NCBI RefSeq assembly: GCF_000612805.1
Contig: NZ_HG964403.1
Location: forward strand, 806,001-870,000
Direction: 5' to 3'
DNA from: Bacillus ndiopicus
Lineage (GTDB): Bacteria; Bacillota; Bacilli; Bacillales_A; Planococcaceae
Length of the DNA stretch: 64,000 bases
Position numbers and translations under genes: made by a program
Shown here: one piece after another, positions 15,256 to 63,329 of the stretch
Position numbering within the stretch: the stretch's first letter is position 1
How the letters are laid out: each line of letters begins with the position of its first letter
The notes under the pieces: model-generated
The model's database searches: none
Seen by the model: the letters and a program-made list of their open reading frames with translations, nothing else
What the model was told of the DNA's origin: nothing

Positions 15256-15454
15256 GTAAATTCCCTCCCTACAGTTGAATCTGAAAGCAATATATTTCAG
15301 TTCGATATTTCACATACCATATTAATTTAACATAGACTCCAAGCGAGTGCAACAATTTTTCAACAACCTTTCAAGAAAAAAACCTTTACAGTAGTTTAAG
15401 CATAATTGAATAGGGTGTTCAATCGACTGAGCAATCAACATTGTGCCATCCTAA

Positions 15455-15528
15455 AGTGTCTATCAGATGTCACAGATTTTTAAGAAATTCCTAGCGAAGA
15501 CGCGAAAAATCTGAACTCAAGTTAATGG
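15455..15528 (+). repeat. Dispersed structured repeat family 1, copy A (degenerate)
   Basis: The core CAGATGTCACAGATTTTT matches the element near fliG (63239-63253) almost base for base. CAGATTTTT (15473-15481) pairs with AAAAATCTG (15505-15513). The outer arms are degraded. It lies just after the iclR stop, in the 274-base gap between iclR and rpmB. The rest of that gap holds ATTGAA/TTCAAT half-sites at about 15402 and the rpmB upstream region. Confidence 0.65.
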
Positions 15529-15529
15529 A

Positions 15530-16270
15530 TTAGTTTCCACGGTAACCTAGCTTCATGGAAACTTGTTGTCCTGTTGCGATTAGTTGTTTTGTTAGCAGCT
15601 CAATTCTTTCTGTAGATACATTGAAGCTGACGAAGCCAATACTGATAGCTCCAACAATTTCACCAAAACCATTAAAAATGGCTACAGCTATAGCAGAAGT
15701 TCCTACTGTACGCTCCCCATGACTTATGGCAAAGCCCTGAGCCCTAATTTGTTCAAGCTGAGCCTCAATTTGTTCTATCTCTTCACCAGAAACAAGTTGC
15801 TGTAAAATTTCTCTAGCACGATCTGGTGACATTGCGGCAAGAATGGCTTTATTTGCTGCACCGATGTTCATTGGGACACGAATACCTAATTGATCATAAA
15901 TTCGAATAGGATTGGAAGGATTATCAATTCTCTCAATAATAATTGTGTCTAAGTCGGCAGGTTTATTCAAATAAACACTTTCCCCTACTAATCGAGCTAG
16001 TTGCTCTAATTCAACTCTGATTTTGCTTATGTAATCCATTGAATCATACACTTGCAAACCAATTTCCATCCAAATTGATCCAAGATGATAATGCTTTGTT
16101 TGACTATCTTGCACGACCATACCTTGTTTAATCATTGCTTGTAAAATTCTATGTAATGTACTTAATGGTAGATCACATTTTGTGGATAGCTCCGAAATGG
16201 ATATACCATTTTCATTTGCTTTAGAAGCTAAAATTTTTGTAATAGTCATTGCTCGTTCTAATAATTGCAT
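15530..16270 (-). CDS. IclR-family transcriptional regulator
   Basis: A 246-residue regulator with an N-terminal winged helix-turn-helix (ISISELSTKCDLPLSTLHRILQ region, about 23-44) and a C-terminal effector-binding domain with the GAANKAILA and GISHGE-like (GFAISHGER) motifs. AGAGGTGA lies upstream of the ATG. It is divergent from the amidinohydrolase-permease-M20 cluster and is its most likely local regulator; the matching operator is at 16426-16451. The effector is unknown; an arginine derivative is inferred only from neighbours. Confidence 0.88.
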   Translation of the reverse strand: MQLLERAMTITKILASKANENGISISELSTKCDLPLSTLHRILQAMIKQGMVVQDSQTKHYHLGSIWMEIGLQVYDSMDYISKIRVELEQLARLVGESVYLNKPADLDTIIIERIDNPSNPIRIYDQLGIRVPMNIGAANKAILAAMSPDRAREILQQLVSGEEIEQIEAQLEQIRAQGFAISHGERTVGTSAIAVAIFNGFGEIVGAISIGFVSFNVSTERIELLTKQLIATGQQVSMKLGYRGN

Positions 16271-49863: not shown

Positions 49864-50766
49864 ATGAGTGTTTATATTAATAAAGACACGAAAGTAATCG
49901 TACAAGGGATTACGGGTGAAACAGCCCTTTTCCATACGAAGCAAATGCTTGAATACGGTACAAAAATCGTAGCTGGTGTAACACCAGGTAAAGGCGGCTT
50001 AGAAGTTGAAGGAGTACCTGTATTCAACACTGTAGAAGAAGCAGTAAAAGCAACTGGCGCAAACGTATCTGTTATTTACGTGCCAGCTCCATTCGCAGCA
50101 GATGCGATTATGGAAGGTGTAGACGCTGGATTAGATATGACAATTTGTATTACAGAGCATATTCCTGTTCTTGATATGGTGAAAGTAAAACGCTATATGG
50201 AAGGCAAGAAAACACGCTTAGTAGGACCAAACTGCCCAGGTGTTATCACATCTGATGAATGTAAAATTGGTATTATGCCAGGCTACATCCATACAAAAGG
50301 TCACGTAGGTGTTGTATCACGTTCTGGTACTTTAACATATGAAGCAGTACACCAATTATCACAAGAAGGTATTGGCCAATCAACAGCAGTTGGTATCGGT
50401 GGAGACCCTGTAAATGGTACAAACTTTATCGACGTATTATCAGCTTTCAATGACGACCCAGACACATATGCGGTTGTAATGATTGGTGAAATCGGTGGTA
50501 CAGCAGAAGAAGAAGCAGCTGAATGGGTAAAAGCTAACATGACAAAACCTGTAGTAGGCTTCATTGGCGGTCAAACGGCACCTCCAGGTAAACGTATGGG
50601 ACATGCTGGTGCGATTATTTCAGGTGGTAAAGGTACAGCTGCAGAGAAAATCAAAGCGATGAATGCAGCGGGTATTGAAGTGGCAGATACGCCATCAGTT
50701 ATCGGTGAAACATTAATTCGTGTTATTAAAGAAAAAGGTCTTTACGATAAATGTAAAACACATTAA
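49864..50766 (+). CDS. sucD: Succinyl-CoA synthetase alpha subunit
   Basis: The 300-residue alpha subunit carries the phosphorylated His247 ([14 protein letters not shown]). An N-terminal CoA-binding Rossmann domain ([12 protein letters not shown]) leads. Its stop codon lies inside the first arm of repeat family 1, so the element starts within the last codons. Confidence 0.98.
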
Positions 50767-50926
50767 TCTTGAGTCAGCAATGTTGTTTCTGTTGCGAAAA
50801 AATAGCAGCAAAAATAAATATTTTCAACATGCCTTTAATTAGAGTAGTGTTGAATCAAGATTAAGCCTCTGGCGGATGTCGCAGGTTTGAAAATCTGGAA
50901 TCAATTCCACCTTAGTGGAATTGATT
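50763..50926 (+). repeat. Dispersed structured repeat family 1, copy B
   Basis: TTAATCTTGAGTCA (50763-50776, containing the sucD stop) pairs with TGAATCAAGATTAA (50851-50864, 13 of 14). The core GCCTCTGGCGGATGTC follows, then a shortened CAGGTTT/AAATCTG stem, and AATCAATTCCAC (50899-50910) pairs exactly with GTGGAATTGATT (50915-50926). Confidence 0.8.
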
Positions 50927-51001: not shown

Positions 51002-51054
51002 CTGCGACGAGTAATCGCAGAAGAAAAAATTGCTCCTGCGGTTACTTGTCGCAG
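51002..51054 (+). repeat. Hairpin repeat family 2, copy 1
   Basis: CTGCGACGAGTAATCGCAG (51002-51020) and CTGCGGTTACTTGTCGCAG (51036-51054) form a long imperfect inverted repeat. The first arm matches 61238-61256 in the flagellar operon at 18 of 19 bases. It fills the 336-base sucD-dprA gap with copy B and the terminator. Confidence 0.75.
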
Positions 51055-51102
51055 AAAAATTGCTATGCGGTCATATTACTTCAAATTTGAAGGAGTGATG
51101 AC

Positions 51103-52054: not shown

Positions 52055-52176
52055 TATTTCACAAAATTTGCGAAATCAATTAAGCTTCGGTTAAACCAAG
52101 TTTAGGGATTTTCGATTGAGCCAGAAAAGCCCCTCTTTCAAATCCGTGCTATCCACCCGAGGCTATATTTCACAAA
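52055..52176 (-). repeat. Dispersed structured repeat family 1, copy E (reverse orientation)
   Basis: Read on the minus strand the segment gives AATATAGCCTCGGGTGGAT, a GGATTT/AAATCC stem, CTTGGTT/AACCGAAG and TTAATTGATT, collinear with the copy before fliG. TATTTCACAAA occurs at 52055-52065 and again at 52166-52176, flanking it. It occupies most of the dprA-topA gap. Confidence 0.7.
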
Positions 52177-61210: not shown

Positions 61211-61500
61211 ATTTACCTTGATTCGGCAATATTTAACTGCGACGAGTACTCGCAGGAAGAAATCTTTCCTGCGACTAGTAGCCGCAGGAGAAAGGTTATT
61301 TTGCACTGAAAACGAAGTGTGAGGTGCAAAAGGTTCCAACTTCTATGGCTACGAGAATAGCGCATTTTTTATTTAATTTAACAGGTATTTAAAGCCTCGT
61401 TGAATCAAGATAAAGCCTCTGCGAATGTCGTAGATTATGAAAGGTAGTTTTATCTTTACTCAAAAGAAATCTGGACAAGGATTGGCAGAGGCGTAATTGA
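61211..61500 (+). repeat. Dispersed structured repeat family 1, copy C
   Basis: CTTGATTC (61218-61225) pairs with GAATCAAG (61402-61409). GCCTCTGC (61415-61422) pairs exactly with GCAGAGGC (61485-61492), where the fliG copy instead has GCCTTTGGCG pairing with CGCCGAGGC. It ends in GGCGTAATTGATTA. It carries a family 2 hairpin inside its first arm and lies in the fliE-fliF gap. Confidence 0.8.
61238..61287 (+). repeat. Hairpin repeat family 2, copy 2
   Basis: CTGCGACGAGTACTCGCAGG (61238-61257) and CCTGCGACTAGTAGCCGCAG (61268-61287) form a long hairpin with a short loop, related to the one at 51002-51054. Confidence 0.75.
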
Positions 61501-61532: not shown

Positions 61533-63128
61533 ATGAATGAACGACTGACAAAAATAAAAACCGACTCGACCAATTTTTGGTCCAGTCGTACAAAAAAACA
61601 AAAGGGCGCAATGCTTGGTGCACTTGTAGCAATAATTGCGTTTGCAAGTGTACTTACATATTTTTCAACACGAACAGAAATGGTACCAATGTATACGGGT
61701 TTATCACAAGCTGAAGTTGGAAAAATTAAAGATGTTTTAGATAATGAAGGCGTTACATATGAAATCACACCAGGAGGCACTAACATTTTAGTGCCGGCGA
61801 AGCAAGCAGACTCGTTAAAAGTATCATTAGCAAATCAAGGTTTTCCACAATCAGGCGGGATTGATACGTCTTTTTTTGCTGAGAATGCAGGATTTGGGAT
61901 GACAGATAATGAATTTGAGGTTTTAAGCAATGAAGCAAGGCAAACAGCTATTGTGAATTTATTAAAGCAAGTTGAAGGTGTCAACGGTGCTGTTGTAAAT
62001 ATTACTATGCCAAAGTCAGGCGTCTTTTTACAAGATGGTCAAGGAGAAGCTACGGCAGCGGTTATGTTAAACACGGCACCTGGACAACAATTTACAGATG
62101 TTCAAATTCGAACATTATATAGTTTAGTAGCAAAAAGTGTTCCAAATTTACCGTTAGAAAACATTGAAATTTCAAATCAATATATGGAATATTACGATTT
62201 AGATGCTGCAACATCTGGAAACAGTTCTGTAGCTACTCCTGTTGGACAAATGCAATTGAAAAAAACTGTTGAACGTGACTTACAGCGTCAAGTCCAAAAT
62301 ATGCTCGGTGGATTAATGGGACAAGATAAAGTTCTTGTTTCTGTTACAACAGACATCGACTTCAAGCAGGAAAATCGTCAAGAAAATTTAGTAGAGCCTG
62401 TTGATACAGAAAATATATCAGGTATTGCGATTAGTGCCCAACGTATTACAGAAACGTATACAGGTACAGGAGCAAATGCTACAGGCACACCAGAAGCGGG
62501 GCAAGTGACAGATAATTTCACTGACTATGTAGAGGGGGCTGCTGGGAATGGCGATTATGAGCGAATGGAAGAAACAATCAACAATGATGTTAATCGCATT
62601 CGTCGTGAAATCCAAGAAAGCCCTTATAAAATCCGCGATATTGGAATTCAAGTAGCAGTAGAGCCGCCAAACCCGGAGGACCTAGCATCATTATCTGATG
62701 AAGTACGCGCAGATATTGAGCAAATTTTATCGACAATTATCCGCACATCGATAGATAAAGATGCAGCTGGTAACTTGTCTGATGAAGATATTGCTGACAA
62801 AATTGTTGTATCTGTGCAGCCATTCTTAGGGAAAGATGTTGCAGTGGATACTACAACATCCAAAATACCTTGGTGGGTTTGGGTAATTGGTGGTGTGTTA
62901 GTAGTTGCGATTGCACTGCTAGTATTCTTTATTTTACGTTCACGTAAACGTAGAGAAGAAGAGGAATTATCGGCAATTGAAGAGCAGCAAGAAAAAATCA
63001 TTGTTGACGATATTGCAGATGAAAAAGAAACAGAAGCTACAGTACGCCGTAAGCAATTAGAAAAAATGGCGAAAGATAAGCCTGATGATTTTGCTAAATT
63101 GTTGCGTAGCTGGATTGCTGAAGATTAA
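61533..63128 (+). CDS. fliF: Flagellar MS-ring protein FliF
   Basis: Forms the membrane ring on which the motor and export apparatus assemble. The 531 residues have a first membrane span (about 28-46), ring-building motifs (YTGLSQAEVGKIKDVL, the FxxNEFEVLSNEARQT region), a second span near 447-468 and a cytoplasmic FliG-binding tail ending in a DFAKLLRSWIAED motif. ATG 61533 has CGGAGGATC upstream; the longer in-frame start is not used. A 201-base gap with repeat copy D precedes fliG. Confidence 0.96.
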   Translation: MNERLTKIKTDSTNFWSSRTKKQKGAMLGALVAIIAFASVLTYFSTRTEMVPMYTGLSQAEVGKIKDVLDNEGVTYEITPGGTNILVPAKQADSLKVSLANQGFPQSGGIDTSFFAENAGFGMTDNEFEVLSNEARQTAIVNLLKQVEGVNGAVVNITMPKSGVFLQDGQGEATAAVMLNTAPGQQFTDVQIRTLYSLVAKSVPNLPLENIEISNQYMEYYDLDAATSGNSSVATPVGQMQLKKTVERDLQRQVQNMLGGLMGQDKVLVSVTTDIDFKQENRQENLVEPVDTENISGIAISAQRITETYTGTGANATGTPEAGQVTDNFTDYVEGAAGNGDYERMEETINNDVNRIRREIQESPYKIRDIGIQVAVEPPNPEDLASLSDEVRADIEQILSTIIRTSIDKDAAGNLSDEDIADKIVVSVQPFLGKDVAVDTTTSKIPWWVWVIGGVLVVAIALLVFFILRSRKRREEEELSAIEEQQEKIIVDDIADEKETEATVRRKQLEKMAKDKPDDFAKLLRSWIAED

Positions 63129-63314
63129 TTTTGATTCAGTAGATATCTATCTTAATAGATCGTGAGATGAATATATAAGTAGCATGTAATTCAGTGGGTA
63201 TCCAAAAACCCACTGAATCAAAATATAGCCTTTGGCGGATGTCACAGATTTTTGAAAAGGAGCTTTTCGAGCAAGCTCGAAAAATCTGGGCACAATTACG
63301 CCGAGGCGTAATTG
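63128..63314 (+). repeat. Dispersed structured repeat family 1, copy D (best preserved)
   Basis: ATTTTGATTCAGT (63128-63140) and ACTGAATCAAAAT (63212-63224) are a perfect 13-base inverted repeat starting in the fliF stop codon. Inside, ATTCAGTGGGT (63189-63199) pairs with ACCCACTGAAT (63208-63218). GCCTTTGGCG (63228-63237) can pair with CGCCGAGGC (63299-63307). CAGATTTTT (63245-63253) pairs with AAAAATCTG (63280-63288). CAATTACGCC (63293-63302) pairs with GGCGTAATTG (63305-63314). Confidence 0.85.
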
Positions 63315-63329
63315 ACTAGGGGGTCGGCT

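Follow-up and report, generated by a model that had tools for sequence, protein, structure and literature searches.

A probable small, modular mobile element of the Planococcaceae, with copies in the flagellar and sucD-dprA gaps of Bacillus ndiopicus

The window analysed here is a 64,000-nucleotide stretch of Bacillus ndiopicus (contig NZ_HG964403.1, positions 806,001 to 870,000). The gap between its fliF and fliG genes holds a complete copy of a non-coding element, composed of a hairpin module (H1), a linker and two further hairpins (H2 and H3). An earlier note made from the letters alone had described a dispersed multi-stem element at 63128-63314; the element is real and as described, with its ends set to 63129 and 63315/63316 by empty sites in relatives. 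The TAA of the target preceding it doubles as the fliF stop codon. The features in the window are as follows (G000 denotes this genome).

63125..63128 (+), target tetranucleotide TTAA with the element directly 3' of it, based on the empty sites in G065 and G068
63129..63315 (+), complete copy in the fliF-fliG gap; its core is covariance match G000:C1:869213-869317, E=3.7e-22
63129..63226 (+), H1 module, with outer arms TTTTGATTCAG (63129-63139) and CTGAATCAAAA (63213-63223) around a variable insert with the inner hairpin ATTCAGTGGGTATCCAAAAACCCACTGAAT (63189-63218)
63228..63243 (+), conserved linker or core, GCCTTTGGCGGATGTC; consensus across copies GCCTCCGGCGGATGTC
63241..63291 (+), H2, with base GTC-A-CAGATTTTT / AAAAATCTGGGC and apical hairpin CGAGC-AA-GCTCG at 63268-63279
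63293..63314 (+), H3, a 22-nt palindrome at the element terminus, CAATTACGCCGAGGCGTAATTG
61216..61500 (+), second copy, fliE-fliF gap, left boundary approximate; covariance match G000:C1:867400-867502, E=4e-13
50767..50924 (+), third copy, sucD-dprA gap; covariance match 856850-856926, E=1e-11
52076..52170 (-), old, decayed copy in the dprA-topA gap, found by profile HMM only (28.6 bits)
15441..15531 (+), degraded partial copy; covariance E=6e-5

The loci at about 61211 and 50763, which the earlier note had grouped with the fliF-fliG element, are clear copies. In the second copy a tandem module enlarges H1, and G018, G060 and G156 have no element in the fliE-fliF gap and represent empty sites. 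The third copy has a shortened H2 and a TTAA target at 50763-50766; it is missing in G067 and G066, where CACATTAAT is retained. The locus at 15455 is also a copy, but a degraded one, and the gap that holds it is shorter in G067. The reversed locus at 52055 was recovered by the profile HMM but is missing from the covariance list at E<=0.01; G065-G068 also have sequence related to it. A CTGCGACGAGTAATCGCAG tandem/inverted module at 51030-51095 in the sucD-dprA gap lies outside the core element and is therefore dispersed on its own.

The aligned copies have a single architecture of three hairpins around a GCCTCCGGCGGATGTCACAG core. The element has no genes and is built from nested hairpins. The consensus arms of H1 are CTTNATTCAGC and GCTGAATNAAG, with TTAA or TTAT directly before them. 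H2 has the consensus GTC-A-CAGATTTT...AAAATCTGGAC and an apical hairpin such as AATTGAGC/GCTCAATT, and H3 the consensus CAATTACGCCRAGGCGTAATTG followed by A(T). RNAalifold missed H3 and the H2 apex on alignment A2 because of MAFFT gaps, and the structure was then assigned by hand on alignment A3. Minimal complete copies are about 125-140 bp (e.g. L056 and L152) and other copies are larger. H1 frequently has a longer insert carrying more hairpins (AGAAGTCCCCCACTTC..., GGGGGTTCAAACCCC). The modules GAGGAACTCAGGCTAAG...CCAACATCCTGTTGGCC, AAGTGCCTTAATTTCTGC...GCAGAAATACGGCAAATCGAACCC and GTTAACC...GGTTAAC replace or enter the loops of H1 and H2, and a tandem unit, TGCGACGAGTAACCGCAGGAGCAAATGTTTT, is a further loop module. 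A short hairpin module, AAGGAAGGATGNAATTCAATCCTTCC, is found inside the loops of other modules (L338, L344, L059), twice in the L338 element. From the alignments, we read the larger copies as apparent hairpins nested within hairpins.

To gauge how common the element is, we used a covariance model (R1) built from 74 copies. This genome contains 98 matches at E<=0.01, about 80 of them at E<1e-4, and 42 blastn matches at E<=0.001; the copy number is far above chance. Of 261 family genomes in the covariance search, 166 carry the element; they represent 13 of 19 genera, and the other genera lack it. We infer the family to be the Planococcaceae because of the named carriers in a GTDB exact-pattern scan, where the matches listed include Sporosarcina, Solibacillus, Psychrobacillus, Lysinibacillus, Metasolibacillus and Filibacter, together with a small number of Bacillaceae, Siminovitchia and Bacillus norwichensis among them. 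Copy number is very uneven inside single genera, from 1 to at least 15, in a family-wide survey whose counts go up to at least 15 per genome; G217 has 135 copies and G156 at least 150. A class-wide covariance search sampled 300 genomes, and just two carriers fell outside the family, both belonging to one other family; a search at order level gave the first family again and nothing more. No match was found by blastn among 72,556 plasmids at E<=1e-5, nor in phage records save for one IMG/VR contig. That contig (L303, IMGVR_UViG_2791355087_000006) has an exact core match and is possibly prophage or host sequence. Several copies (L050, L059, L077, L080, L101) are also in NZ_JADHDX, labelled Arthrobacter beigongshangensis REN13; despite the actinobacterial label, loci L050 and L059 have about 41-42% G+C, and mislabelling or contamination of the record is probable.

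Comparison of orthologous gaps in relatives, which the earlier note had proposed, showed at several independent loci that sister species have the exact empty site. Between fliF and fliG, the element is present in this genome and in G066 and G067, while G065, G068, G018, G060, G156 and others have a gap of 14-18 nt. The empty alleles read GATTAA^TTAGGGG in G065 and GATTAA^TTGGAGGG in G068, the empty site also being given as GATTAA^TTAGGGGG; filled alleles read GATTAA-[TTTTGATTCAG...GTAATTGA]-C/TT.... We tallied by hand 14 separate events for which an empty allele exists. In 10 of them YTWA, mostly TTAA or TTTA, is directly 5' of the junction: fliF-fliG (twice), L217, L012, L129, the window copy at 50763, L088 (CTAA), L214 (TTTA), L153 (TTTA) and L224 (TTTA). 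The TAA within some of these targets is a stop codon. The other four junctions (L059, L141, L084, L157) have no YTWA in the empty allele, which counts against a mobile element. The empty sites compared show no target duplication of 2 bp or more; a 1-bp duplication is possible because of A/T runs at the junctions. At filled sites the target bases are at the foot of H1 and able to pair with its right arm.

In one Sporosarcina genome (G206), which has 78 exact H3 ends, copies at unrelated loci are 98.5-99.3% identical, which shows recent movement. In Psychrobacillus-type genomes (G129, G130, L067, L098) the TTAA that ends fliF is likewise followed by a copy, but one of a different shape, which either inserted independently or is old and was lost elsewhere. 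Differently shaped copies occur in two lineages at an identical TTAA (L067/L098/L166/L168 and window 63125-63128), and this site is possibly an insertion hotspot.

The pairings quoted in the earlier note are found in the sequence, and the pairing-preserving changes it had reported extend across copies. Among 46 short copies, changes on both sides of a pair were found in 149 cells, compared to a mean of 56.5 in shuffles and 14-42 in slid registers. Pairing is kept in 92% of cells (shuffles 84%, slid registers at most 46%), and the covariation score is 0.216 (shuffles 0.103, slid registers at most 0.062). Both-sided changes occur at 25 of 43 pairs, including 11 of 15 in H1 and 10 of 19 in H2. 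Because the pattern used to find many of the 46 copies fixes the 5' side of H2, too much should not be read into the invariance of GATTTT. A long-range pairing of the linker with H3, GCCTTTGGCG/CGCCGAGGC, as the earlier note had it, is possible, but no covariation for it was seen in alignments A2 and A3, where the linker is identical beside both AA and GA loops of H3. Because more copies, exact empty sites and covariation exceeding the controls all turned up, none of the outcomes that the earlier note had named against its own reading came about.

Most copies run sense to both neighbouring genes (107 ++ versus 25 -- by simple ORF calling), and they often lie shortly before a co-oriented ORF, at a median of 25 nt. 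Others are antisense or convergent, and a few seem to be intragenic. In two genomes 69% of copies are concordant with the replichore (50 of 72 and 43 of 62), assuming an origin near base 1 and a terminus at mid-contig. The replichore-discordant copies of G156 are more often antisense to both neighbours (8 -- versus 3 ++), and local gene direction alone is therefore not setting orientation.

The earlier note had left a choice between a selected RNA fold and a palindromic mobile element. A cis-acting RNA kept by the host, such as an attenuator or a processing or stability element spread before many genes, would account for the strong covariation and for the sense copies just upstream of ORFs; selection on RNA could also be a source of the sense and replichore biases, which we count against mobility. 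A host-kept RNA would, however, tolerate G.U over A.C, and the stem mismatches have no G.T excess (G.T versus A.C, 66 versus 78 in H1 and 29 versus 45 in H3, with only two tRNAs as positive control), so a host-selected fold is not supported. Symmetric decay of inserted copies would give this pattern of equal G.T and A.C; that the control had only two tRNAs counts against this reading. Sister species also differ in the presence of the element in the same operon, copies occupy non-orthologous sites in both orientations, many are decayed, and Rfam 15, at gathering score and at E<=1, returned nothing but one chance miRNA-like match. We consider the host-selected RNA very unlikely. Of the two halves of the earlier proposal, the mobile one is supported, by more copies, covariation above controls and exact empty sites, and the selected-RNA one is not. 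Strong covariation alone is thus no proof of a functional RNA, which calls for care when structured RNAs are sought in the Planococcaceae, and the stem pairing looks like a requirement of mobility.

If the element is mobile, the question is which enzyme moves it. Hairpin ends and insertion 3' of TTAA or TTTA without target duplication are as for a Y1 HUH transposase of the IS200/IS605 or RAYT type, as is the 69% replichore concordance. IS608 uses guide pairing with its target, and the target bases able to pair with the H1 arm are comparable. Against this, G000 (about 80 copies) and G156 (at least 150) encode zero Y1_Tnp, G206 with its near-identical copies has only a 61-aa Y1_Tnp fragment, and there is no association within genera (OR 1.0-1.9, p>=0.2). 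Loss of the enzyme after spread is possible because G206 is a draft and the copies in G000 and G156 are old; mobilisation by Y1 is nonetheless unlikely. Beside short IS200-like Y1 enzymes, many family genomes encode a longer and possibly RAYT-like Y1 protein, in open frames of about 200-250 aa; it is also present in genera with few or zero copies. Copying as a SINE-like retroelement by a group II intron or another reverse transcriptase is consistent with the lack of target duplication, a possible structured transcript and the orientation bias, and RVT_1 has a crude association with the element (OR 4.1, p=1e-7). Stratified by genus, this is mostly gone (OR 1.24, p=0.78 at two or more copies; OR 0.90, p=0.92 at ten or more), the signal being kept only at the cut of at least one copy (p=0.03), and we find this origin quite unlikely. 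Neither Y1_Tnp nor RVT_1 clearly tracks the element once genus is controlled, apart from that one RVT_1 value. There is only a very slight chance that we are looking at a diverged bcr1, the Bacillus cereus repeat with mobility tied to a TTTAT motif. The two are alike in size, copy number, placement between genes and the TTTA(T)/TTAA motif (PMC6542083), but B. cereus plasmids carry bcr1 and the 72,556 plasmids have no match to our element (bcr1 itself being compared by description), and the class-wide search found carriers outside the family in only one other family.

Very probably, then, the Planococcaceae carry a small, non-autonomous and modular mobile element that inserts 3' of YTWA without duplication and would be moved by an enzyme acting in trans. 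Insertion is directly 3' of TTAA, TTTA or CTAA, with no detectable target duplication, and the YTWA would pair with the foot of H1. The trans-acting enzyme would recognize the folded ends, so that selection on mobility would keep the pairing in master copies while single copies decay neutrally; effects on neighbouring genes would be by-products. Neither a mobilising enzyme nor an autonomous relative was found, which counts against a mobile element: upstream of 32 exact H3 ends at 30 loci in G166, G206 and G217 were only non-coding variants or the flanking gene. With no enzyme tracking the element and no autonomous version, the mechanism is therefore inferred. One tentative and rather doubtful version is that an enzyme of an undescribed kind moves a folded single strand, that pairing of the H1 foot with YTWA picks the site without duplication, and that further hairpin modules insert into the loops of those already present. 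The way in which small repeats such as BOX, ERIC and bcr move has long been a gap in knowledge. With its hundreds of copies, exact empty sites, defined target and very recent copies in G206, this element allows a direct search for the moving enzyme.

The earlier note knew of no named family for the element, which holds within the libraries searched. No named Lysinibacillus or Planococcaceae repeat was found in the open literature, subscription papers being mostly outside the search and an earlier description being possible. Canonical MITEs are defined by terminal inverted repeats and target site duplications. Like a MITE, the element is mobile, non-coding and many-copy; unlike one, its ends as read from the alignments are unrelated hairpins, H1 (CTTNATTCAG...) and H3 (CAATTACGCC...), and its empty sites have no duplication of 2 bp or more. 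It resembles the REP/BIME repeats of RAYT (Y1 HUH) systems in being palindromic, intergenic and present in many copies, but is much longer with three hairpins, and two heavily loaded genomes have no Y1 enzyme. With miniature elements derived from IS200/IS605 it shares hairpin ends, a tetranucleotide 5' of the insertion and the absence of target duplication, but a parental IS sharing its ends was not found. BOX elements of Streptococcus (boxA-boxBn-boxC) are modular, hairpin-rich, intergenic and transcribable, 67-637 bp long; they have terminal inverted repeats and target duplications, and an IS partner has been proposed for them (PMC3049150). Our element is likewise intergenic, hairpin-rich and modular, with variable internal modules, but has no clear terminal inverted repeat or target duplication, BOX being compared by description and not sequence. 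The repeats bcr1-bcr18 of the B. cereus group are mobile, 100-400 bp long and present in up to 130 copies with a TTTAT motif; they are described as restricted to that group, with bcr1 copies also on its plasmids (PMC6542083). In contrast, and again by description, our element is in the Planococcaceae and matches no plasmid record. We file it as a small non-autonomous repeat that matches no described repeat found and is set apart from BOX and bcr by their descriptions; these two are also the closest kinds, BOX in build and the bcr repeats in size, copy number and TTTAT motif.
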